From Fimbriimonadaceae bacterium (GTDB lineage: Bacteria > Armatimonadota > Fimbriimonadia > Fimbriimonadales > Fimbriimonadaceae): 60,830 bases of DNA. This document shows positions 29,909 through 43,428 of this stretch, in pieces. Position 1 is the stretch's first letter. Every line of letters begins with the position of its first letter. Position numbers and translations under genes: made by a program. The notes beneath the pieces were generated by a model. It had not been told where the DNA came from. It worked only from the letters and a program-made list of their open reading frames with translations, and made no database searches. The stretch spans positions 1 through 60,830 of the forward strand of contig JALOLT010000010.1 of the NCBI GenBank assembly GCA_025455775.1, given 5' to 3'.

Positions 29909-30592
29909 GTGAAAAAGAGGATGAAAGAAGAGTTTAGTTTTGAGCCGCTAGGCGAGGACATGTTCCGGAATCCCGAGCGACGTTGCCCGGTCATCCTTTT
30001 GCTCGATACCTCTGGCTCGATGGCCACTGCAATGAACATGGTGAATTTGGGCATCCAAGACATGAAGAATCAACTCATGACAGACCCCTTGGCCTGTCAG
30101 AGAGTCGAGGTCGCGATCATCACCTTTGGCCCAGTCGTTTTGGCGCAAGATTTTGTCACAGTCGATCAGTGGGTACCCCCGCGCCTCGCTGCGAGCGGCA
30201 ACACCCCGATCGGAGAGGCCCTCACTTTTGCCATCAACCAACTCAACCTCCGAAAGGCTGCATATCGAGAGGCGGGAATCCCTTACTACCGCCCCTGGAT
30301 TTGGCTGGTGACAGATGGAGCCCCTACCGATGCTTGGCGCCCAGCCGCCTTGCAGGCGAAAGCAGAAAGTGCCGCCGGAGGGATCGAGCTCTTCACGGTT
30401 GGAACTGACTACGCCGACTTCAATGTCTTGCGCGAAATCAGTGAGCCTCGCGCCCCAGTTCGCTTGAGAGAAGCGCGTTACCGAGAAATGTTCGTTTGGC
30501 TGTCCCAGTCCCTGAAGCCTGTCTCGACCTCTCGGCCAGGGTCGCCCCTCACCTTAGAACCACCCAGCGACTGGGGAAAGATCGAATCTTAG
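29909..30592 (+). CDS. vWA-domain protein (TerY-like), first gene of a signalling triad
   Basis: The 227 residues form a single von Willebrand A domain: MIDAS DTSGS at about 33-37, the Thr in SGNTPIGEAL and the Asp in LVTDGAPTD, so metal binding should be intact. This matches TerY, the vWA partner of the PP2C phosphatase and kinase in TerY-P triads, which are linked in the literature to stress and phage-related signalling. Cytoplasmic, no signal peptide. The phosphatase gene starts 17 bp downstream. In many triads TerY has a C-terminal zinc ribbon; here the tail is a short proline-rich segment instead. Confidence 0.88.
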   Translation: MKKRMKEEFSFEPLGEDMFRNPERRCPVILLLDTSGSMATAMNMVNLGIQDMKNQLMTDPLACQRVEVAIITFGPVVLAQDFVTVDQWVPPRLAASGNTPIGEALTFAINQLNLRKAAYREAGIPYYRPWIWLVTDGAPTDAWRPAALQAKAESAAGGIELFTVGTDYADFNVLREISEPRAPVRLREARYREMFVWLSQSLKPVSTSRPGSPLTLEPPSDWGKIES

Positions 30593-30609
30593 GGATCTGA
30601 GAAGAAAGG

Positions 30610-31377
30610 ATGGGCTGGGTCTTTGCTTCTGCGATCTCGAAAGGTGCCATTCACCAAGAGTCGGAGCCCTGTCAAGATGCTGCCTCGGTAGTGACCTTTT
30701 GGAGTAATGGCCAAGAAGGGCTTCTCGCTGTCGTGAGTGATGGGGCTGGCTCTGCCAAGCTGAGCCACCTGGGGAGCCAAAGGGTCGTCGAGGTCTTCGT
30801 AAATTCTGTCCTGGCTTTGGTGAGCGGTGAAAACAGCCATGAGAGCCGATGTGGCCTCGATTCAAGCGATGCCAGCCTGATCTTGCACCTTGTTCAGCAG
30901 GTGATCCACAACCTGGCTTCAGAGCTAAAAATTGACATCCTGGATCTGAGTTCTACCTTGGTCGGTCTCGTTATTCTGAATGAATATGCGTTTGTCATGC
31001 AGGTTGGGGATGGGGCGGTCGCCTTGTTTAACGGGTCAGAGTGGGTTGTTCCTGTCTGGCCCCAAAACGGAGAATTTGTGAACGAAACGACTTTCGTGAC
31101 GAGCCAAGACGCCAGTCACCTGATGAAAGTTAAGATTCTACGCGGAGAGTTTGAGGGAGCGATTGCCTTTACGGACGGCCTCCAATACCTTGTGCTCGAT
31201 CATCAAAAGCAGCAGGTTCATCAACCATTTTTCCAGTCCGTCTGGGAAAAGGTGCCGAAGTCGGAGGGATGGCATCAAGGTTTGGCTTCTTGGCTCGACT
31301 CGATTCTCAAGTCAGAACCAGTCACCAACAAGACCGACGATGACACGACTTTGGTTGTGGCAAGGAGGTGGCCTTGA
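30610..31377 (+). CDS. PP2C-type serine/threonine phosphatase of the triad
   Basis: The 255-residue product has the PP2C metal motifs VVSDGAGS, MQVGDGAV, AFTDGLQ and the C-terminal KTDDDTTLVV. The fold is of the PP2C_2 type found with TerY and kinase genes. The role inferred is dephosphorylating targets of the neighbouring kinase. The stop TGA at 31375-31377 overlaps the TTG start of the kinase gene, so the two are translationally coupled. An Asn/Ser-rich insert lies at about residues 75-87. Confidence 0.9.
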   Translation: MGWVFASAISKGAIHQESEPCQDAASVVTFWSNGQEGLLAVVSDGAGSAKLSHLGSQRVVEVFVNSVLALVSGENSHESRCGLDSSDASLILHLVQQVIHNLASELKIDILDLSSTLVGLVILNEYAFVMQVGDGAVALFNGSEWVVPVWPQNGEFVNETTFVTSQDASHLMKVKILRGEFEGAIAFTDGLQYLVLDHQKQQVHQPFFQSVWEKVPKSEGWHQGLASWLDSILKSEPVTNKTDDDTTLVVARRWP

Positions 31378-33389
31378 AACAGCAGCTCTTCCTGGATGGT
31401 GCTCCTCTTTCTCTTGGGTCCCGACTCGCCGAAGGAGGAGAAGGCACGATCTTCCGGCTGAACCTACCGGGCGATTTGACCCACCCAAAGCTGGTTAAGC
31501 TCTACAAGGAGGAAGGTAAAAGCCGCGAAAGGAGAATCCTCAAGGCAAGGGTACTGCGCCGTCAGGCGAGTGAAGAGGTTCGTCACGCCGTCGTCTTGCC
31601 ACTCGATGAAGTGACGGACTCTAGCGGTGCAGTTGTGGGCCATACCATGGAGCACTTGGCTGGCTGGGTTCCCCTGTTCATGTTGTATCAGACAAAATCC
31701 CGAGTCCAAAAACTGGCTGAGAGCGACTGGGGACTCTTGGTTCGGGTCGCTCGCAATCTGGCAACCTCGATCCAGTTTGTCCACGAGCGAGGGTGGGTGA
31801 TTGGTGATCTCAACGAGTCAAACTCTCTCGTCAGTCCCAAAGCAGTCGTCAAACTCATCGATGTCGACAGCTTTCAGGTAGCAGAGTGCGGCAAGGTTTT
31901 GCCATGCCCTGTCGCCAAGTCTGAACTCCTGGCTCCCGAATACTCTGGCTTGTCACTCGAAAATCTGGAGCGAAGCCAAGAGGGGGATCTCTTTTCCCTC
32001 GCTGTCCTCATTTTTCAAATATTATTGCTGGGTCGCCATCCCTTCGCTGGTCGCCCTCTCCAGAGCGAGCTGACTCTGGAAGAGACGATTGTACGCCAGA
32101 TTTACCCCTATCGACCAGAAGGGCGCTCCGAGATTGCACCGCCTCCCCACGTTTCGATCAACTGGGTGTCACAAGAGATTCAGGCCCTTTTTTTGCGGAG
32201 CTTCGAGGGAAAGCCAGAAGATCGCCCTTTGCCGTCCGAGTGGATCCTGGCCCTGAAAAACCAAGAGAAGAATCTGACTGTTTGTGGCGTAAACCCCCTC
32301 CACAAATACAATTCCGAATTGCAGAACTGCCCTTGGTGTGAGTGCGAAAAGGTCTGGGGAGTCCCCTTGTTCGAAGCCCAGAGTACGCCAAATCAGATTC
32401 TGCCGTTTGAGGTGGGAGACTTTGTGGAAAGGGTCACTGCTCTACCAATCCCGTCTACGGTCGAAAAGCCAGAGCCCATCCTTTGGAGTGAGGTGAAAAG
32501 AGGAAAGCACTTCCGGGATTTAGACGTGGTTTTTCTGGGTTTAGCCGTTGTTCTCTACGGAGCTTTGGCGATGATCTCGGTAGAAGTCCTGATGGTCGCG
32601 ATTCCCATGATCCTTGGCGTGTTCGGCCTTGGCGCAGTTGTGAGGGCTGTGGTCAGGAACTCGAAAGGCAATAAATGGAGAAAAATTCTAGGTCAATACG
32701 CCACGCTTTTAGAAGAATGGGATTGCCAGGCGGATCCAGACCTCTTTGTCCAAGCCAGACGAAAGCTGATCGAGGTTGCCGACTGGCAAAGGGTCGAATG
32801 TGAAATGCGAGCTGAGCTGGAAACCAAGGCCAAGATGAAGATCTACGAGCCTCAGCTTCTGAGCTATCTCGCCAAATACTCAATCCATGTCGCCAATTGC
32901 GATTCTCTCACTCCACGCCATAAAGAGTCTCTGGCGGCAGCGGGGGTCACGACAGCGGCAAACATCTCTGAGGCCTCACTCCAGAAATTGATCAAAGGGT
33001 CAGGAGATGGCGAGCGGTTCAGGGAAGAGCTTCTTCAGTGGCGGGACGAGCTGGAGGAATTCTTCTGGAACTCTTCCTTCTTTGTTTTGCCTCAACCTAC
33101 TCAATCAAAGATTGAACAAGTCATTGCAAGAGCCAGACACGAGGCACAAGATGCTTTGCGCCACGGTGAAGCCCGCTTGCTGAAACTGAGTGACCAATTG
33201 ATGGCTCAGCAACGATTGTTGGGGCAACAACTCCACGCCCTTCGCCGGGAAGCAGTGGAGGCACTTTCGAAACTACCAGCCCAGGGAGAATCGTTCGGAC
33301 TTGTGAACTTGGATCTCTACAGACCTAAGGGGCCGACTCTAAAATCCCAGCCCGCCCAAGCGATCGAGCAAGCCAGAACCGAAATCTGA
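31374..33389 (+). CDS. Membrane-spanning protein kinase with zinc-ribbon and helix-hairpin-helix domain
   Basis: The 671 residues comprise a kinase domain (Gly loop AEGGEG 19-24, Lys42, catalytic GDLNESN 144-150, DVD 163-165 in place of DFG, APEY 187-190), a CPWC pair near 320, two hydrophobic segments at about 385-430, then a coiled region and an HhH motif (LTPRHKESLAAAGVTTAANI). HGDLN and DVD are usual in triad kinases, so activity is expected. The TTG at 31374 is chosen: AAGGAGG lies 6-7 nt before it, while the GTG at 31368 overlaps that site. The TTG overlaps the phosphatase stop. The last 51 bases overlap the convergent gene at 33339. Confidence 0.88.
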   Translation: MKQQLFLDGAPLSLGSRLAEGGEGTIFRLNLPGDLTHPKLVKLYKEEGKSRERRILKARVLRRQASEEVRHAVVLPLDEVTDSSGAVVGHTMEHLAGWVPLFMLYQTKSRVQKLAESDWGLLVRVARNLATSIQFVHERGWVIGDLNESNSLVSPKAVVKLIDVDSFQVAECGKVLPCPVAKSELLAPEYSGLSLENLERSQEGDLFSLAVLIFQILLLGRHPFAGRPLQSELTLEETIVRQIYPYRPEGRSEIAPPPHVSINWVSQEIQALFLRSFEGKPEDRPLPSEWILALKNQEKNLTVCGVNPLHKYNSELQNCPWCECEKVWGVPLFEAQSTPNQILPFEVGDFVERVTALPIPSTVEKPEPILWSEVKRGKHFRDLDVVFLGLAVVLYGALAMISVEVLMVAIPMILGVFGLGAVVRAVVRNSKGNKWRKILGQYATLLEEWDCQADPDLFVQARRKLIEVADWQRVECEMRAELETKAKMKIYEPQLLSYLAKYSIHVANCDSLTPRHKESLAAAGVTTAANISEASLQKLIKGSGDGERFREELLQWRDELEEFFWNSSFFVLPQPTQSKIEQVIARARHEAQDALRHGEARLLKLSDQLMAQQRLLGQQLHALRREAVEALSKLPAQGESFGLVNLDLYRPKGPTLKSQPAQAIEQARTEI

Positions 33390-34154
33390 TGCCAAGCTGA
33401 ACCACTTTGCCACGCCATACTTCGCGCAGATTTCTGCCACCAATTGATCTGCTTTCTTGGTTGGGACGTCGATGCGTTCGGCGCTGGTGCCTTGCATTTG
33501 GGTCAGAGCCTGCACGGCTGCGTCTGGATTTTCGGCGGAGTTGGCAATGGCATCCATGATCTCGATCATCATGCCGCTGGTTTCCCCGAGGGCTGTTCGG
33601 TATGCAGTTTGGACCGGGATGCACTCGGCCGGAGCTGGCTTGGACATGAAGAACTCATTGAGTTCAAACCATTCCCGCTTAACTTCTCTTGTCCGCTCTG
33701 CCAACTTTGCTGTGGGAGCTTCTATTTCGGTTGTTGGTTCTTCGCCTCCTGTCAGGCTGCGCAGTTCGCTCAAGGCTGGGCCCGCCTTCAGTTGAACCAT
33801 CAAGGTGGCGAGGCTTCCGATTTGCCCCCTCGAAAGTCTGGCCCGACGTTCTTCCGTGACCCGAAGGTGTTCGAGCCAGGCTGCTACATCGCCAGGCATC
33901 TTGGCCGGATCTGGCAAAACAGGAGTCGGAGCTGCATCATCCTGGAGGACGGGAGCGACTGCTGCTTGATCCTGCAGAACAGGTGTAACCTGGCCTCCTT
34001 GGGCCAAAATCGGCTTTTCATCACCTCGCTGGGCGAGGACATTGAACCCAACGGCCCCCAAGAGCAGGAGCAGGAGCAGGAGCAGAACTGCACCGCCGAT
34101 GAGCATCGTTCGCTCCTTCTTCTTCTGGTGGAGGTAGGGGTCAGGTTGCATCAT
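33339..34154 (-). CDS. Single-span membrane protein of unknown function
   Basis: The 271-residue product starts with a short cytoplasmic tail (MMQPDPYLHQKKKERTM), one membrane helix with an uninterrupted run of nine leucines, and a periplasmic part with an imperfect VTPVLQD / VAPVLQD / PTPVLPD repeat at about 55-82, followed by helices. I do not recognise it. Its 3' end overlaps the kinase gene tail-to-tail by 51 bp. Its helices and Ala content fit a real gene, but the repeat makes alignment-based identification hard. Position next to the triad may be chance, as it is on the other strand. Confidence 0.7.
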   Translation of the reverse strand: MMQPDPYLHQKKKERTMLIGGAVLLLLLLLLLGAVGFNVLAQRGDEKPILAQGGQVTPVLQDQAAVAPVLQDDAAPTPVLPDPAKMPGDVAAWLEHLRVTEERRARLSRGQIGSLATLMVQLKAGPALSELRSLTGGEEPTTEIEAPTAKLAERTREVKREWFELNEFFMSKPAPAECIPVQTAYRTALGETSGMMIEIMDAIANSAENPDAAVQALTQMQGTSAERIDVPTKKADQLVAEICAKYGVAKWFSLASDFGSGLLDRLGGLGF

Positions 34155-34351
34155 GCCTTTGTCACGGATCTCCTTTCAAGTTTGACGCTCTTCACCGCGC
34201 TCTACGTCCCAGAATCCCGTAAGTTTTCCAGGATTCAGGCAGATATTCTCATGTCGGAGCATCACTTGGCCGAAAGGATATGTTATAGATACTAGAGCAA
34301 AAGCACCGACGCTTTCGCGACTTGATTGCCGCCGATCAAAAACTGATTGCT

Positions 34352-34873
34352 ATGAAACCAAAGATCAGCCCCAATCATCCCCTGGTTGTTCACTTCCGTG
34401 AGATCGTCCACGACCAGGTGGTTACTCATGTCTCCAGCAAGGATCAGGACGATGTGACGAGCTATCTGACTGACTTGCTCGTGTCGTTCTTGACAACGGA
34501 GGGTGTCTTTGCCCTGCGAGATGGGGATGGCACCCACCAGACGATCATCGAGATGATGGCTGCCGCCGATGTGAGGCTGGGGGCGAACTCATTTTTGCAA
34601 GAGCGCGAGGTTCACAAGCATATCGGTGACTTCATCTTGTTCTGGAGCGGGATCCATCCTGAAACCTTGAACACTGTCCGCACGCCGGATGGCAGGATGA
34701 TCCGGTGCGACTATTCCCATCGGGCGAAGGAGAGTTACCACCTGGTGAGCACCTTCGATTTCCCCCCCTATGATCGAGAGGCTCCCACTTTCCGAAAGCT
34801 CAGTCACGAATTTGAGGCCTACGAGTTTGTCATGCGCCAAATCGGGCAAAAAACCAATCTTTATGCAAGTTGA
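34352..34873 (+). CDS. Hypothetical cytoplasmic protein
   Basis: The 173-residue product has no signal peptide or membrane segment, and I do not recognise its family. Sequence is mixed helix/strand with conserved-looking segments (SYLTDLLVSFLTTEGVF, then GDFILFWSGIHPETL). ATG at 34352 is used; an in-frame TTG at 34322 lacks a ribosome-binding site. The 3' end overlaps the MFS transporter gene tail-to-tail by 13 bp. Confidence 0.7.
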   Translation: MKPKISPNHPLVVHFREIVHDQVVTHVSSKDQDDVTSYLTDLLVSFLTTEGVFALRDGDGTHQTIIEMMAAADVRLGANSFLQEREVHKHIGDFILFWSGIHPETLNTVRTPDGRMIRCDYSHRAKESYHLVSTFDFPPYDREAPTFRKLSHEFEAYEFVMRQIGQKTNLYAS

Positions 34874-36343: not shown

Positions 36344-37162
36344 ATGTACGAACAGTACTGGGGATTGAACGAACCACCGTTCACACTAACGCCTGACCCG
36401 CGTTTCTTATACATGAGCCGAGCTCACGAAGACGCGCTCATGATGCTTCACTACGCCATCACGCGCAACAAAGGGGCTGCTATGTTGACTGGCGACATAG
36501 GCCTTGGCAAGACAACCGTCAGCCGAAAACTGCTGGAGACTCTCGATCCTGTGCAATACAGGATCGTCCTCATCGTCAACCCGATCTTGACTCCCGTTCA
36601 GATGCTACAGGAAATTCTGTCGCAACTTGACGTCCCTGTCAATTCTCGGAATCGACAAGTGCTGGTGCAACGTTTGCACCTCGCTTTGCTTGAATACTAC
36701 GATAAGGGTCGCAAAGTGGTCTTGATGATCGACGAGGCCCACCTCATCAGGTCGCTTAATAGTTTCGAGGAGCTTCGGCTGCTTTTGAACTGCCAGATGA
36801 ACGACCAGTTCCTCATCTCTCTTCTTCTGCTTGGTCAAAAGGAACTCGTCCCCAAGATTCACAAAGTACCAGCATTGGAGCAAAGACTCGCAGTTCGCCA
36901 CCAGCTCAAACCCCTCGAGGTGTTTGATACGGGAGAGCTGATCTTGCACAGGCTCAGAATCGCTGGCTACACGGGTGAACACAGTCCCTTTACCCCCGAA
37001 GCGATTCACCAAATCCATAAGGCTTCCGGTGGTGCCCCTCGAGTGATCATCCAGCTCGCCGATAACAGTTTGCTCATGTCCAGTGCTCGAAAAGAGCGAG
37101 TGATTGACGGCTACCTCGTCCACGAAATGGTCGAAGAGTATGCCGGAGGAAGGGTCGCATGA
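36344..37162 (+). CDS. ExeA/GspA-like AAA ATPase, first gene of the pilus operon
   Basis: The 272 residues have Walker A GDIGLGKT at 50-57, Walker B VVLMIDEAH near 125-131, and the start MYEQYWGLNEPPFTLTPDP, which is diagnostic of ExeA-type ATPases. In type II secretion, ExeA helps assemble the secretin through peptidoglycan; here it lies in the operon that ends with PilQ, so a role in secretin assembly is the natural inference. No membrane segment or peptidoglycan-binding domain is seen. AAGGA lies 6-8 nt before the ATG. It overlaps the next gene by 4 bp. Confidence 0.93.
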   Translation: MYEQYWGLNEPPFTLTPDPRFLYMSRAHEDALMMLHYAITRNKGAAMLTGDIGLGKTTVSRKLLETLDPVQYRIVLIVNPILTPVQMLQEILSQLDVPVNSRNRQVLVQRLHLALLEYYDKGRKVVLMIDEAHLIRSLNSFEELRLLLNCQMNDQFLISLLLLGQKELVPKIHKVPALEQRLAVRHQLKPLEVFDTGELILHRLRIAGYTGEHSPFTPEAIHQIHKASGGAPRVIIQLADNSLLMSSARKERVIDGYLVHEMVEEYAGGRVA

Positions 37163-37602
37163 ATCTTGCTGATGCCATTCGAAAAGCCCAAGCTGATGGG
37201 CCAGTGATTCCCCCGCCAGCGCCTGCGCCAGTTGCTGTGAATTCCCCAATTCAGCCGGAAGCCTCTTTGGATTCTGCTTCGGTTGCTCTGGCTCCGGATG
37301 CACCGGAACCACCCAACCAAGCCGTGAACTCCGGGAACGTGGTGCGATTGGAAATCTTTCTCACAGCCGAGCAAATGAACGGAATGTTCAGGGCCATCAT
37401 CAACGGCCAGCACTCTGTCTTGACTCTACGCGAAGCAGCTGCCTACTTAAGAGTTTCACCAAAGACTCTGCAAAAGCTCGCTGATGAGGGAGATGTTCCT
37501 GGTGTGATGATCGATGGCAACTGGAGATTCCCGAAGCCCAATCTCGACGATTGGATCATGACCCAAAGTGCTCTGAACGAGGATCAAGAAGATGTCGCTT
37601 AG
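37159..37602 (+). CDS. Small protein with MerR/excisionase-type helix-turn-helix
   Basis: The 147-residue product has a Pro/Ala-rich N-terminal half and a C-terminal DNA-binding-like domain (LTLREAAAYLRVSPKTLQKL, then a wing ending in FPKPNLDDWIM). This helix-turn-helix_17 type is usual in excisionases and some pilus-linked proteins. Its presence between the ATPase and pilM, with 4-bp and 11-bp overlaps, ties it to the pilus operon. It may be a regulator, or the fold may act as a protein-binding module; the sequence does not decide. Confidence 0.85.
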   Translation: MNLADAIRKAQADGPVIPPPAPAPVAVNSPIQPEASLDSASVALAPDAPEPPNQAVNSGNVVRLEIFLTAEQMNGMFRAIINGQHSVLTLREAAAYLRVSPKTLQKLADEGDVPGVMIDGNWRFPKPNLDDWIMTQSALNEDQEDVA

Positions 37603-38677
37603 CCTATTCAAAAAGAAGAACTATGTGGGGATTGATATTGGTCAATCAACGATCAAGTTGATCCAAATTGACCGAACGAGCAGTGGTTGGCGCGCTTCGC
37701 GAGTGCTCACTGTCCCGACCCCAGAAGATTCGATGAGAGATGGGGTTGTGATCGATCCCGATGCTGTGGGCTTGACGATTCGAGCTGCCCTTCGCACCGG
37801 TCGGATCACAGCCAACACTGCCATCATCGGAGTTTCCGGCGGGGGCGTCGTGGTTCGCAATGTCCGAACCACCAAGATGAACCAAGAAACACTCCGAAAA
37901 TCGATTCGGTACGAAGCAGGACGATACATCAGTTCCTCCTTCGAAGACAGCTACATCGAGTTTCAGATCCTGGGAGACACAATTGATAATCAAATCGATG
38001 TTTTGATTGTCGCTTGCCCCAAAGAACTGGCAAATAGCCGAATGAGGGCTTGCCAAATTGCTGGGCTTGAGGTTTCTGTGGTTGATGTCGAGGCCTTTGC
38101 TGCCTACCGGTCTCTGATCGAGTGCGACGAAGCCTCCGTTCTCGGGCAGATGACAGTCGCCCTGGTTTCCATTGGTTCGACTGCAACGTCGGTGAGCGTC
38201 GTGACTCAGGGTCGCTTCGCCATGATTCGGTCTATCCCCCAAGCTGGTCAGACCTGGACCGAAGCCCTGAGAACCCACTTCAAGCTGTCACATACCGAAG
38301 CCGAACAGGGGAAGGCCCAATTGGATCTAACTCCCCTCCTGAACGAGACGGCTGTCATCGAGAATCCACCCTTGCGGGTTCTTCAACCCCATGTGGATGA
38401 TCTCATTCGAGAAGTTCGCCGCAGCCTGAACTACTACCAATCGCAACAGACCGAGGCAGGGCAGAACAATCCCGTGACCCACCTGGTGATTACCGGTGGT
38501 GGGGCGAGATTGAAGGGCTTAGCCGAATACATGAGCCACAAGCTTGGCCTGCAAGTCGCACCCCTCGGCGCCTTTAGCAGCCCCAAGATCACTCAGTTCG
38601 GCGAACCGGACGAGATTGGGATGGAGTACGCCGTGGCTGCCGGGCTTGCGATCCGCGCCTTTTCTAAGTCCGCCTGA
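37592..38677 (+). CDS. pilM: Type IV pilus assembly protein PilM
   Basis: PilM is an actin-like cytoplasmic ATP-binding protein of the alignment complex that links PilN to the motor. The 361 residues have the phosphate-1 motif GIDIGQSTIKLIQ, a central SIGSTATSVSVV motif, and the C-terminal VITGGGARLKGLAEY adenosine motif. Length is normal. It overlaps the HTH gene by 11 bp; pilN follows after 18 bp. Confidence 0.95.
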   Translation: MSLSLFKKKNYVGIDIGQSTIKLIQIDRTSSGWRASRVLTVPTPEDSMRDGVVIDPDAVGLTIRAALRTGRITANTAIIGVSGGGVVVRNVRTTKMNQETLRKSIRYEAGRYISSSFEDSYIEFQILGDTIDNQIDVLIVACPKELANSRMRACQIAGLEVSVVDVEAFAAYRSLIECDEASVLGQMTVALVSIGSTATSVSVVTQGRFAMIRSIPQAGQTWTEALRTHFKLSHTEAEQGKAQLDLTPLLNETAVIENPPLRVLQPHVDDLIREVRRSLNYYQSQQTEAGQNNPVTHLVITGGGARLKGLAEYMSHKLGLQVAPLGAFSSPKITQFGEPDEIGMEYAVAAGLAIRAFSKSA

Positions 38678-38695
38678 CCCCAAGGAATAGATTCG

Positions 38696-39292
38696 ATGCC
38701 AACGATCAACCTGATTTACGAACAAAGACTCCAAGCCAAGGCTGTTGAGCGCAAACTCAAGGCAGGCATCATGGCGATCGTCGGCCTGGGAGGCCTCTGC
38801 TTCCTGGCGACGACGTTCCTCATGGTCGATGCCACCCGATTGCACTTCGAGGCCTCGGCTCTGGAAAGAAAGAAAAAAGACCTTGAGCCCCTCCTCGCTG
38901 AGCTTGATGCAAATCAAACATTGCTCAACGAACTCAGCCCACGGCTCCAGACCCTCACCAAAGCCCAAGATTTCACCCAGAAGTGGAGTCTGATCCTGGA
39001 TCACCTGACAGTGAATACACCTCCAGGCACGTGGTTGACCAACGTGAAGGCATCTCAGACAGACAAGGCGAAGCCTCTACAAGTCACTCTGAATGGCCAG
39101 TCCATCACGAACGAGAACATCGGAAATCTCATGCTGAGACTGGAAACGAGCGAGATGCTCGAGAATGTTCAGCTGAAGTTCACAAATGAACGACCCGGCC
39201 AAGACGGGGCGAAGTCACTCGACTTTGAAATCATCGCCGATCTTTCGGGATCCAAGGAAAAGGAGCCTGAGAAGCCCAAGGAAACATCATGA
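38696..39292 (+). CDS. pilN: Type IV pilus assembly protein PilN
   Basis: The 198 residues show the PilN layout: a short cytoplasmic start PTINLIYEQR (the INL motif binds PilM), one membrane helix (IMAIVGLGGLCFLATTFLMV), then a coiled-coil (ERKKKDLEPLLAELDANQTL) and a ferredoxin-like periplasmic domain. It pairs with PilO in the inner membrane. It overlaps pilO by ATGA. Confidence 0.93.
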   Translation: MPTINLIYEQRLQAKAVERKLKAGIMAIVGLGGLCFLATTFLMVDATRLHFEASALERKKKDLEPLLAELDANQTLLNELSPRLQTLTKAQDFTQKWSLILDHLTVNTPPGTWLTNVKASQTDKAKPLQVTLNGQSITNENIGNLMLRLETSEMLENVQLKFTNERPGQDGAKSLDFEIIADLSGSKEKEPEKPKETS

Positions 39293-39924
39293 GCAAACAA
39301 GGTAACCCAGCTCAATCTGTCCTCTTGCTTGGCCTAGCGGTTGCTGCTGTGGGGGGTGGAGCTGTCTTCTGGCAGTTCAACAACCGTTCAGACGCAGAAG
39401 CTAAGGTTTCCCGACTTCGACAGGAACTCCCAGACGAATCGCAAATAAAGGAGTCCCTTGAGAAGTCCAAGCTGGAGGTGAGTGAACTGCAGAACAAGCT
39501 GACTCACCTGGAACAAGGAGTGCCAGGCATCGCCTACGTTCCAACTCTACTCAAGGAACTAGAGCAACTCGGTCTGAGCAAAGCGATGCAAATCACCGGC
39601 GTCCGTCCAAACCTTGTGACGGCCCCTCCTCCAGCAGAAGGAGAGAAGAGGCAAGAGAGGCCCTACCAAGAGCTTGAAATCGACATCACTGGACGCGGTT
39701 CTTACCAGTCAGTGATGGAAATGGTCAAGGCTCTCCAGAGCTTTCCCAAGATCGTCGCTGTGCAAACCGTTGGATTAACCCCACGAAGAGACGGCACGAA
39801 CTACACGTCGCAACTCGATGCCAGCGTCCGGCTCAAAGCCTACATGTTCCGGGAGGGCGACAAGAAAGCCGGGGCAGAAGAGCCTAAGCAAGTCGCAACG
39901 AATTCTCGGGGAGGATCCCTATGA
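39289..39924 (+). CDS. pilO: Type IV pilus assembly protein PilO
   Basis: The 211 residues have a membrane helix at the N terminus (SVLLLGLAVAAVGGGAVFW), a coiled-coil, then a ferredoxin-like domain (ELEIDITGRGSYQSVMEMVK, the usual PilO segment). It should form a heterodimer with PilN in the periplasm. Overlaps both neighbours by 4 bp. Confidence 0.93.
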   Translation: MSKQGNPAQSVLLLGLAVAAVGGGAVFWQFNNRSDAEAKVSRLRQELPDESQIKESLEKSKLEVSELQNKLTHLEQGVPGIAYVPTLLKELEQLGLSKAMQITGVRPNLVTAPPPAEGEKRQERPYQELEIDITGRGSYQSVMEMVKALQSFPKIVAVQTVGLTPRRDGTNYTSQLDASVRLKAYMFREGDKKAGAEEPKQVATNSRGGSL

Positions 39925-40607
39925 ACGACAAAAAGAAACTGATGGTGGTCGGAATCTTGTTGGTGGTCATTCTTGCCGTGGGAGCTTTTCAGTTCATGGG
40001 AAGTTCGACCCCAGCGAGCGCAGCCGCAACCAAGAAAGAAGAGATCACCAAGGAAGCCGAGGGTGCAGAGCTCGGATCTGGTGGTGAGGAAGAAGCAAAA
40101 GGGCCAGCAATCGACCCAGCCTTGCAGCCTCTTATCGCCGGCACCTTCCCCTCGCGAGACCCCTTCTTGCCGGCTGGAGCCAGGGCAATGGAAACCCCAA
40201 AGTCGGTAAGCCAGACCCCTCCCAGCCAAGCGCAGAACTTACCGAACCCAGTCACAGGGCCAAGCTCCGCGCCACCCCCACCGAGGATTTCGACGAATCG
40301 CCCTCGGTATGAAGCACCAGATCCAATGAGAGGCAGCTTGCCGCCGATCAACCCAGGTGCCCCCAATGGACCACAGAACCCGACCCAACCTATCGTGGTT
40401 GTGCCGACCTATCGGCTCAAAGGAGTGCTTTTGGGTGACAGGCCTCTGGCAGTTTTTGAAGATTCTAAGGGCAACCAGAAGCTGGTGCCGCTCGGAGGAT
40501 CAATTGACGCAGATACCATCGTGGTGTCGATAGAGAAAGGAAAAGTGACGATCAGATCAAAGGGGAAAGAACGAACCCTTGTGATCGAGGAGGAAGCACG
40601 TGATTAA
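39921..40607 (+). CDS. pilP: PilP-like pilus alignment protein
   Basis: The 228-residue product has an N-terminal membrane anchor (LMVVGILLVVILAVGAFQFM) rather than the usual PilP lipobox, a long Pro/Asn-rich linker, FPSRDPFLPAG, and a C-terminal beta domain (YRLKGVLLGDRPLAVFEDSK ... GKVTIRSKGKERTLVI) that matches the homology region of PilP. It should connect PilNO to the secretin. The call rests on position and the C-terminal fold. It overlaps pilQ by 8 bp. Confidence 0.8.
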   Translation: MNDKKKLMVVGILLVVILAVGAFQFMGSSTPASAAATKKEEITKEAEGAELGSGGEEEAKGPAIDPALQPLIAGTFPSRDPFLPAGARAMETPKSVSQTPPSQAQNLPNPVTGPSSAPPPPRISTNRPRYEAPDPMRGSLPPINPGAPNGPQNPTQPIVVVPTYRLKGVLLGDRPLAVFEDSKGNQKLVPLGGSIDADTIVVSIEKGKVTIRSKGKERTLVIEEEARD

Positions 40608-43428
40608 TACAACTGTCAAACTCGGAATGGCCCTAGCCCTTGTGGCTACCAGCCTGATTGCGACGGCTCAAACCCCTCAGCTCGAAAAGGTTGTTGCCAC
40701 CCAAGTTGGTAACGGACACCTTTTCGTGATCTCTGGAAATGGCCTCTCGCGCCCGACTTCCCGCTTCACCGAGGGCGGAATCAACTATGTCCTGGAATTC
40801 GATGGGATCGGAACTCGCCGAGATCGGATCCAAGTGAACCGAGGCGGGGTCTCCTTTGTCTCCTTTGGTTGGACCGACCCACGAGAAGCCAAAACGAGAG
40901 TGATTTTTAGAATCAACCGAGGAGTCAAGCCGATCCTTGAACAGAAGGCCAACGAATTTTGGGTTTGGGTCAATGTCTCAGAATCAAGCCGCAGTGCTTA
41001 CCGTCCGGGTGGGAACTCCCAGGGCAATGGCACGCCTTCGGCTGTGAAGACTCCTGTGGGGCAGGCCAACAAGGGCCTCGATGCAGTCAAAACGCCAGAA
41101 GCACAAGGAACCTCAGGAACTCTTCCACGCGTTCCTGGCTCGGGATCGTCCAAGATGCCATTGCCTCACCCAGCTGTCAACAAATCTGGTGAGGCAAATA
41201 GCGGCACTGGTGCCATGGATCCTATTCAGGGCGGCCTCAGTGTCTCTCGGGTAGAAGAGACTCGCCGCGTTGAGCAACCCCCCACCAATGCAACTCCGAA
41301 TCCGGTGAGAGTTTCGAATCCTTCGCCCACCCCTGCATCTCCTGCCGTCTCGCCGTCAAACCCCCTCGTCTCACTTGACTTTGTGGGAACCGACGTCATT
41401 CAGATTCTGAAGGCTTTGGCGATTCAATCAGGCGTCAATATCATTGCCTCGCCAGACGTCAGCCCGAGCGATAAGCCGGTTCGCCTCACTGTGTCCCTGA
41501 CTCGGGTCACACTCGATGACTCCCTGCGATTCATTACAGCGATGGCGGGACTGCGCTACGGCAAGTTCCAGAACACCTACTTCGTCACTCCTGCCCCGAA
41601 CTTTGCTTCCGCCGTTCGTCAACTGATGGAGCGAATGGGTGGCAAGTACGAGACTCGAGTCGTGAATCTAATTTCCGGCGAAGCAGCGCAAATCCGCGAA
41701 GCTGCGCTCAAGGCGATGCCACCCGATGGAAGTGATGGTTTCTATGAGATCATCATCCCTGAAGGCACCAAGGTTTCGGTTTCGAGCAGTGAGCAACAAA
41801 AGGCGAATCAGCCTCAAGCTGGTGCATCCGGTGGCGACTCCCAAGCTGGCGGACGCACAAACGAGACGACTCAGACGGTGCAGGGTGCCGAGCTGGAACA
41901 AGTCCGCCGTGCCAGAACCTACTATCTGATGGTTGTGGGCGACCCTGCCAGAATGGACTCGGTTGTCTCCTACATTTCTGAACTAGACACTAAGCTGGCT
42001 GAGGCCTTTAGCCTCCAACGCATCAGCTCGATCACGACTTCAGTAATGCCAGCGCAAAGTGGCGACACTGGCCGCATCAAATCCACCTTGGAGTCACTGA
42101 TGCGCGACAATCCCCAAGCGACCGACATCAAAATTCAAGAAACCTTGGTCGAAGGCACGAACAAGTTCGAAACGCGAAAGGGATTGATTTTTGTCGGACC
42201 CCAGAGCGAAATCGACCGAATCGTGAGGATTGCGAAGTCGCTCGATCGCCAACTGTGCGAAATGGCGGGAATCCCTTACTCAGACGACACCACTGCTCTC
42301 CAACTCGTGAACGAAGTGGTCGCGGTGAACTTCATCGACCCTGGCATGGCAGAACATGAAATCAGGACGAGAATCAGAGGAATCCAAGTCTCGACCTTGC
42401 CTATGGCAGTGACACCTGGCAGCCTCACCACGACTTCCAGTTCAGAAACCTCGAGCTCGGTGGGAGGAACAGACGGAGGAGCCAAGCAGTCGACGAGCCA
42501 GCCAGGAAGCCAAACCAGCGAGTCAAAATCAGATAAGACCCTGAACGGAACTGAACCGATGAAGCTCATGCTGACCGGTACGAAGGCTCAGATCGAAGAA
42601 GCCAAGAAGGTTCTTGCGATGATCGACATCGCTCCTAAGCAAGTGGCTCTCGAACTTCGCGTGATGGAGCTTCGCAAGGAAGATGCCCTGAGACTTGGTA
42701 TCAACTGGAACGCTCTAACCGGTGGAACAGCGGTCCGTGCGACCCTGAACCAAGGCTTGGGTGATGCTCCCGCGACGCCGGGAACGGTTAGCTACAACGA
42801 CAGTTCGCTCAGCGTTCTTGGAACCCTGGACAAAATGGCGAACGATCGCAACCTCATCGCCCGCCCCAATGCTCTGGTGAGTGATGGCCGAACGGTGCGC
42901 CTCTTTGTGGGAGACACGGTTCGATACATCAAGACGATCCAAACCAGCCAGAACGGAACGACTGTGCAAACAGACGAGATCAACGTCGGTGTCGTCTTTG
43001 ATGCCAGTGTCCGAATTGGCAGCAATGACTCGATCGCGATGAATCTGGATCAGAATTTCTCGATCCTCACAGGATTCACTCCTGTTCCTGGTGGCGGACA
43101 ACTGCCTCAGACCAGCGACCGACGCACCTCCATGTTCGTGAACATGAAGAGCGGTGAAACCCTGGCGATTGGCGGCCTGATCTTGGATCAAGATCGAAAG
43201 AAAGTCAGTGGGATCCCGATCCTGATGGATTTGCCGATCATTGGCAAACTCTTCAGCCGAACGGATAACTCCCGCGACCGAACTGAGATCGTGTTCTTCC
43301 TGACGGCTGTGGTTGTGGATAGCACGAACCGCTCGAACGCTGCGAGCCCCAGAAACAGCGCATCCCGAACCCCCGATCCAGTTGGCGACTACCGCAAAAC
43401 TGGGCCTGGAATCGGAGACAAAAAGTAA
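40600..43428 (+). CDS. pilQ: Type IV pilus secretin PilQ
   Basis: PilQ forms the outer-membrane pore for the pilus. The 942 residues include a signal peptide (about 1-22), an AMIN-like beta domain, a long Ser/Pro/Thr/Asn linker (about 130-250), an STN/N0 domain (LDFVGTDVIQILKALAIQSG), N1-like repeats, and the C-terminal secretin core (LELRVMELRKEDALRLGINW, SGETLAIGGLILDQ, GIPILMDLPIIGKLF). The GTG start at 40600 has GAGGA 6-8 nt upstream. Serine-rich loops at about 405-425 and 610-645 are longer than usual. A strong terminator follows. Confidence 0.96.
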   Translation: MINTTVKLGMALALVATSLIATAQTPQLEKVVATQVGNGHLFVISGNGLSRPTSRFTEGGINYVLEFDGIGTRRDRIQVNRGGVSFVSFGWTDPREAKTRVIFRINRGVKPILEQKANEFWVWVNVSESSRSAYRPGGNSQGNGTPSAVKTPVGQANKGLDAVKTPEAQGTSGTLPRVPGSGSSKMPLPHPAVNKSGEANSGTGAMDPIQGGLSVSRVEETRRVEQPPTNATPNPVRVSNPSPTPASPAVSPSNPLVSLDFVGTDVIQILKALAIQSGVNIIASPDVSPSDKPVRLTVSLTRVTLDDSLRFITAMAGLRYGKFQNTYFVTPAPNFASAVRQLMERMGGKYETRVVNLISGEAAQIREAALKAMPPDGSDGFYEIIIPEGTKVSVSSSEQQKANQPQAGASGGDSQAGGRTNETTQTVQGAELEQVRRARTYYLMVVGDPARMDSVVSYISELDTKLAEAFSLQRISSITTSVMPAQSGDTGRIKSTLESLMRDNPQATDIKIQETLVEGTNKFETRKGLIFVGPQSEIDRIVRIAKSLDRQLCEMAGIPYSDDTTALQLVNEVVAVNFIDPGMAEHEIRTRIRGIQVSTLPMAVTPGSLTTTSSSETSSSVGGTDGGAKQSTSQPGSQTSESKSDKTLNGTEPMKLMLTGTKAQIEEAKKVLAMIDIAPKQVALELRVMELRKEDALRLGINWNALTGGTAVRATLNQGLGDAPATPGTVSYNDSSLSVLGTLDKMANDRNLIARPNALVSDGRTVRLFVGDTVRYIKTIQTSQNGTTVQTDEINVGVVFDASVRIGSNDSIAMNLDQNFSILTGFTPVPGGGQLPQTSDRRTSMFVNMKSGETLAIGGLILDQDRKKVSGIPILMDLPIIGKLFSRTDNSRDRTEIVFFLTAVVVDSTNRSNAASPRNSASRTPDPVGDYRKTGPGIGDKK

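Follow-up and report, generated by a model that had tools for sequence, protein, structure and literature searches.

Sequence comparison places a vWA, PP2C and membrane kinase gene set from a Fimbriimonadaceae genome in the YegL-PphC-YegI family

Three adjacent genes in a Fimbriimonadaceae genome, which encode a vWA protein, a PP2C phosphatase and a membrane kinase, are placed by sequence comparison as a further member of the known but poorly understood YegL-PphC-YegI signalling module. They lie in a stretch of 60,830 nucleotides (contig JALOLT010000010.1) that was analysed as a whole and is referred to below as the window, and they very probably constitute a stand-alone, membrane-anchored phospho-switch of this family, carried as an accessory cassette. 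This reading draws on the gene order, the homology, the intact catalytic and MIDAS residues, a model of a transmembrane hairpin in the kinase, the patchy distribution of the genes and an empty site in a relative. The family spans about ten phyla, with methanogenic archaea among them, and is near-universal in E. coli, yet the literature that we searched gave no substrate, no signal or inducer and no phenotype for any of its members, in agreement with the original prediction, which had left the input of the kinase unassigned.

That prediction had proposed a three-gene set between positions 29,909 and 33,389, coupled by a 17-bp gap and a TTGA overlap. All three open reading frames are found there with Pfam support (Table 1), the vWA and PP2C matches being well above chance and the kinase match clear, although Pfam and NCBIfam assign the kinase to generic kinase families only. 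The gap between the vWA and PP2C genes (30593-30609) is confirmed in the sequence, as is the overlap, in which the TTG start of the kinase at 31374 runs into the TGA stop of the PP2C gene at 31375-31377. The motif AAGGAGG stands approximately 6 nt 5' of this TTG, and a GTG at 31368 offers an alternative start. The start of the vWA gene is ambiguous between GTG 29909 and ATG 29921, the alignment with E. coli YegL beginning at the latter. Together with purC and waaA the set forms a run of five plus-strand genes (purC-waaA-vWA-PP2C-kinase) with gaps of 12, 14, 17 and -4 bp, from which cotranscription of the five is plausible.

Table 1 Features of the locus, in positions of the window
Feature	Positions	Strand	Details
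vWA protein, YegL family	29909..30592	+	227 aa; Pfam VWA 6.5e-11; 45% to E. coli YegL, 4e-58
PP2C phosphatase, PphC family	30610..31377	+	255 aa; Pfam PP2C_2 5.8e-41; 31% to E. coli PphC, 2e-33
Ser/Thr kinase, YegI family	31374..33389	+	671 aa from TTG 31374; Pkinase 1.2e-9; 26% to E. coli YegI over 650 aa, 5e-54
Putative zinc knuckle, C304-x5-H310-x8-C319-PW-C322, immediately C-terminal to the kinase domain	32283..32339	+	four ligands invariant in 39 sequences
Predicted transmembrane helix pair of the kinase, aa 381-398 and 403-425, 4-residue loop	32514..32648	+	AlphaFold model; hydropathy 2.62 and 2.40
Degenerate HhH region of the kinase, aa 505-557	32886..33044	+	alignment, pattern counts; fold match Z 5-6

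Downstream, the minus-strand gene at 33339-34154 converges on the kinase gene, with whose 3' end it shares 51 bp, and encodes a 271-aa protein with one N-terminal hydrophobic segment and no Pfam match; it is present in all 41 genomes searched (family and order). The plus-strand gene at 34322-34873 encodes a 183-aa protein with no Pfam or NCBIfam match, a homologue of which lies near the same site in one relative (G003, locus L087). The genes further downstream (36344-43428) are ordinary: an AAA ATPase, an HTH_17 protein and a pilM-like run for type IV pilus assembly.

All three proteins align end to end, and in the same gene order, with YegL, PphC and YegI of E. coli K-12. The alignment of the kinase with YegI spans the CPWC motif, the transmembrane pair and the helix-hairpin-helix (HhH) region. 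The locus shows the adjacent vWA-PP2C-kinase order, full-length collinear homology in each of the three proteins, and a membrane kinase with a CHCC motif, transmembrane segments and a C-terminal HhH-like region, albeit one with degenerate hairpins. The original prediction had treated the CxxC motif, the two membrane segments and the HhH domain as additions made by this kinase; the CPWC motif, the helix pair and an HhH-like region are indeed present, but they occur already in YegI and are thus not peculiar to this organism. What counts against the phospho-switch reading is that the kinase is only 26% identical to YegI and that the two fall in separate branches of the kinase tree, which is informative only for grouping within the family, its outgroups (one generic kinase and a TerY-P kinase) being very long-branched.

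The catalytic and metal-site residues are retained in all three proteins. The MIDAS of the vWA protein (D33-x-S35-x-S37, T99, D136) is intact and invariant in 16 homologues, as are the metal-site aspartates of the phosphatase (D23, D44, D189, D243-D245) in 17 homologues. The kinase carries non-canonical HRD and DFG signatures, GDLNESN and IDVDSF, yet its catalytic core can be considered as kept, since none of K42, D145, N147, D163 and D165 varies across 39 sequences. Its CxxC motif is a single CPWC (C319, C322) and forms part of a C304-H310-C319-C322 set that is invariant in the same number of sequences, which suggests a metal knuckle, putatively for zinc. The matching position in a plasmid TerY-P kinase reads CPYC.

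The kinase is laid out as a kinase domain (1-299), the CHCC motif (304-322), the transmembrane hairpin (381-425), a helical HhH-like region (~492-567) and a coiled coil (574-632). An AlphaFold model with a mean pLDDT of 87 shows the kinase fold, transmembrane helices at 381-398 and 403-~425, the helical domain and the coiled coil, and a Foldseek search with this model returned kinases, including PknB. Hydropathy detects both transmembrane segments as well, and in the sequence basic residues border both helices on the cytoplasmic side. Because the modelled loop between the helices is only 4 residues long, the kinase domain and the C-terminal part would lie on the same side of the membrane, with no sensor domain outside.

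At least 575 relatives were recovered with the vWA alignment as query, and of the best 80 named loci, for which gene order was examined, 70 have the vWA-PP2C-kinase order; among the other ten, three run off a contig end and in seven one partner is not recognised, some of these likewise on short contigs. A scan of genome contigs with the kinase alone as query gave no matches. According to their record titles the triad loci come from Armatimonadota, Bacteroidota, Pseudomonadota, Cyanobacteriota, Bacillota, Chloroflexota, Acidobacteriota, Planctomycetota, Chlamydiota, Methanoregula archaea and others, many of them being MAGs in which misbinning is possible. Relatives were searched for conserved neighbours, as had been proposed in advance, and no fourth gene is shared across phyla, where we see only lineage-specific synteny and generic transporters; this points to the three genes as the functional unit. 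Two arrangements stand apart: in one relative (G029, L053:10187-14235) two full-length YegI-type kinases lie in tandem behind one vWA and one PP2C gene, and another genome has two triads (G142; L060, L055) whose kinases group separately, one with the local clade and one with the YegI-like branch.

The HhH region is where conservation breaks down, since the CHCC set, the MIDAS and the catalytic set are kept everywhere, whereas the HhH hairpins are not. The family consensus of this region is GIG...VPGFG. In the window kinase the glycines of hairpin 1 are lost and hairpin 2 is reduced to KGSGD, so that two h-x-G-h-G hairpins are not present, and there is no Pfam HhH match; the region does align with the HHH_5 match of E. 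coli YegI (9.3e-4, under the curated cut-off). Glycine hairpins 1 and 2 are found in 0/12 and 1/12 sequences of the window clade, as against 17/27 and 22/27 elsewhere, figures that are simple pattern counts over related and hence not independent sequences. One could suppose that the kinase acts as a membrane-to-DNA relay, in which phosphorylation modulates the binding of nucleic acid by the HhH region. The hairpins retained outside the clade speak for such a relay, as do the HhH-type domains matched by the C-terminal region when modelled separately (pLDDT 96), among them the N-terminal lobe of RAD51, DinB polymerases and the alpha-CTD of RNAP, at Z 5-6, which is middling by the tool's own scale and, being below 8, may reflect a common helical arrangement. 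SAM domains are matched as well, however, and these, like NusA AR2, which is also similar in fold, bind protein; Foldseek with the C-terminal domain alone gave no match under E 0.001. With hairpin 1 lost and hairpin 2 altered in this protein, and the glycine pattern missing from all and from all but one of the clade sequences respectively, we regard a DNA relay as very unlikely, and the earlier suggestion of a link from a membrane-bound signal to nucleic acid finds no support in a kinase whose transmembrane helices are modelled as a tight hairpin without an outside domain and whose glycine hairpins are eroded. One could also speculate that in this clade the region was converted from a nucleic-acid-binding module to a protein docking site, so that kinase, phosphatase and vWA protein would form a switch confined to the membrane, spreading as an accessory cassette and sensing the state of the membrane with no outside domain; we consider this unlikely.

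Two further explanations concern the company the genes keep. The triad lies 14 bp 3' of waaA on the same strand, and cotranscription is plausible, so it might be part of a conserved housekeeping operon with purC and waaA, for purine or LPS synthesis, an outcome that the original prediction had named as one that would explain the genes otherwise. Against it, waaA is found in 40/41 genomes searched, while the triad kinase is found in 5/36 other family genomes, with a further fragment where a contig stops, and in 0/24 other genomes of the order; weaker matches are generic kinases. Where both can be placed (G005, G014, G015), triad and waaA lie on different contigs, and the flanks of the other triads are unrelated and differ from one another save in pairs of close relatives. 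In G003, which is without the triad, waaA directly abuts the homologue of the minus-strand gene at 33339-34154, tail to tail and with overlapping stop codons. Given this empty site, known from one genome, and the presence of the downstream neighbour in all 41 genomes, we conclude that the triad was inserted at the waaA site or, less likely, lost from it; a housekeeping operon is extremely improbable. Patchy distribution and clean insertion, which fit an accessory cassette, would also suit a TerY-P-like anti-phage or stress module in which the kinase, set off by infection or metal stress, arrests the cell. The gene types and their order are those of a genuine TerY-P set, for which we used a ter plasmid (L179) as reference, and among TerY-P-like kinases those that end in an OB fold act as anti-phage systems, those with a zinc ribbon occurring in CoCoNuT systems (PMC11090510). 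The similarity to the plasmid set (vWA 4e-18, PP2C 3.5e-7, kinase 1e-9) is far below that to the E. coli set (4e-58, 2e-33 and 5e-54). The plasmid TerY carries the metal-binding domain TerY_C (PF15616, 2.7e-52), for which the window vWA protein gives no Pfam match, and a search for TerD (PF02342), the ter family that was looked for, found no homologue in the genome, in line with the earlier statement that ter genes are absent. PADLOC reports a weak, partial TerY match (0.0043) and a weak PD-T4-6 match, which are not diagnostic of defence because the E. coli proteins score similarly weakly. No defence genes were seen adjoining the triad, no defence neighbours are conserved, and near-universal presence in E. 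coli is unlike that of a defence island gene. We therefore think a defence role improbable, and the term "TerY-P-type" used at first survives only as distant homology with shared gene types and order, the defining TerY_C being absent and the E. coli set far closer. On sequence grounds the two triads are best described as cousins, and the window triad is not classed as TerY-P.

How the membrane-anchored phospho-switch might operate can be sketched from E. coli, where YegI, a membrane-bound Ser/Thr kinase, is described as phosphorylating itself on serine and as a substrate of the phosphatase PphC; the same source adds that no condition promoting yegI and pphC expression has been defined (PMC13232886). 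By analogy, the Fimbriimonadaceae kinase, anchored at the cytoplasmic face through its predicted hairpin, would autophosphorylate and phosphorylate a cytoplasmic or membrane partner, and the PP2C protein would reset its phosphorylation, as the E. coli pairing suggests. The vWA protein, with its intact MIDAS, may serve as a docking point for a peptide or for its two partners, and so set when these partners meet.

Among known systems, the GAP1-N2 conflict systems contain kinase-PP2C-vWA sets with zinc ribbon or transmembrane kinases (eLife 2020, PMC7159879) and thus share the three gene types, but no GAP1-N2 GTPase genes were seen adjoining the window triad. TerY-P triads, whose kinases bear a zinc ribbon immediately C-terminal to the catalytic domain (PMC11090510), share gene types, gene order and a Cys-rich motif at that place; they differ in having TerY_C, a larger PP2C and accompanying TerD, in their much weaker similarity, and in a short soluble tail where the window kinase has a transmembrane hairpin and an HhH-like region. 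Cyanobacterial triads share vWA, PP2C, kinase domain and gene order, but only approximately the first 340 kinase residues match, and the annotated example has WD40 repeats at the kinase C-terminus. In that plasmid locus (L180:7452-9500) the repeats replace the transmembrane and HhH part, so the C-terminal part can be swapped against a constant background of vWA, PP2C and kinase core. The closest likeness is to YegL-PphC(YegK)-YegI of E. coli K-12, in gene order, collinear homology, CPWC, transmembrane pair, HhH region and intact MIDAS and PP2C residues. The differences are that in K-12 yegJ sits on the opposite strand between pphC and yegI, the three family genes being on one strand, that the kinases are of low identity and the HhH glycine hairpins of the Fimbriimonadaceae kinase are eroded, and that the module is near-universal in E. 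coli (yegL in 5360/5426 complete genomes) but patchy in Fimbriimonadaceae. Placement in this family sets the locus apart from the defence triads of the ter and TerY-P kinds and makes the question of its function testable in E. coli K-12.
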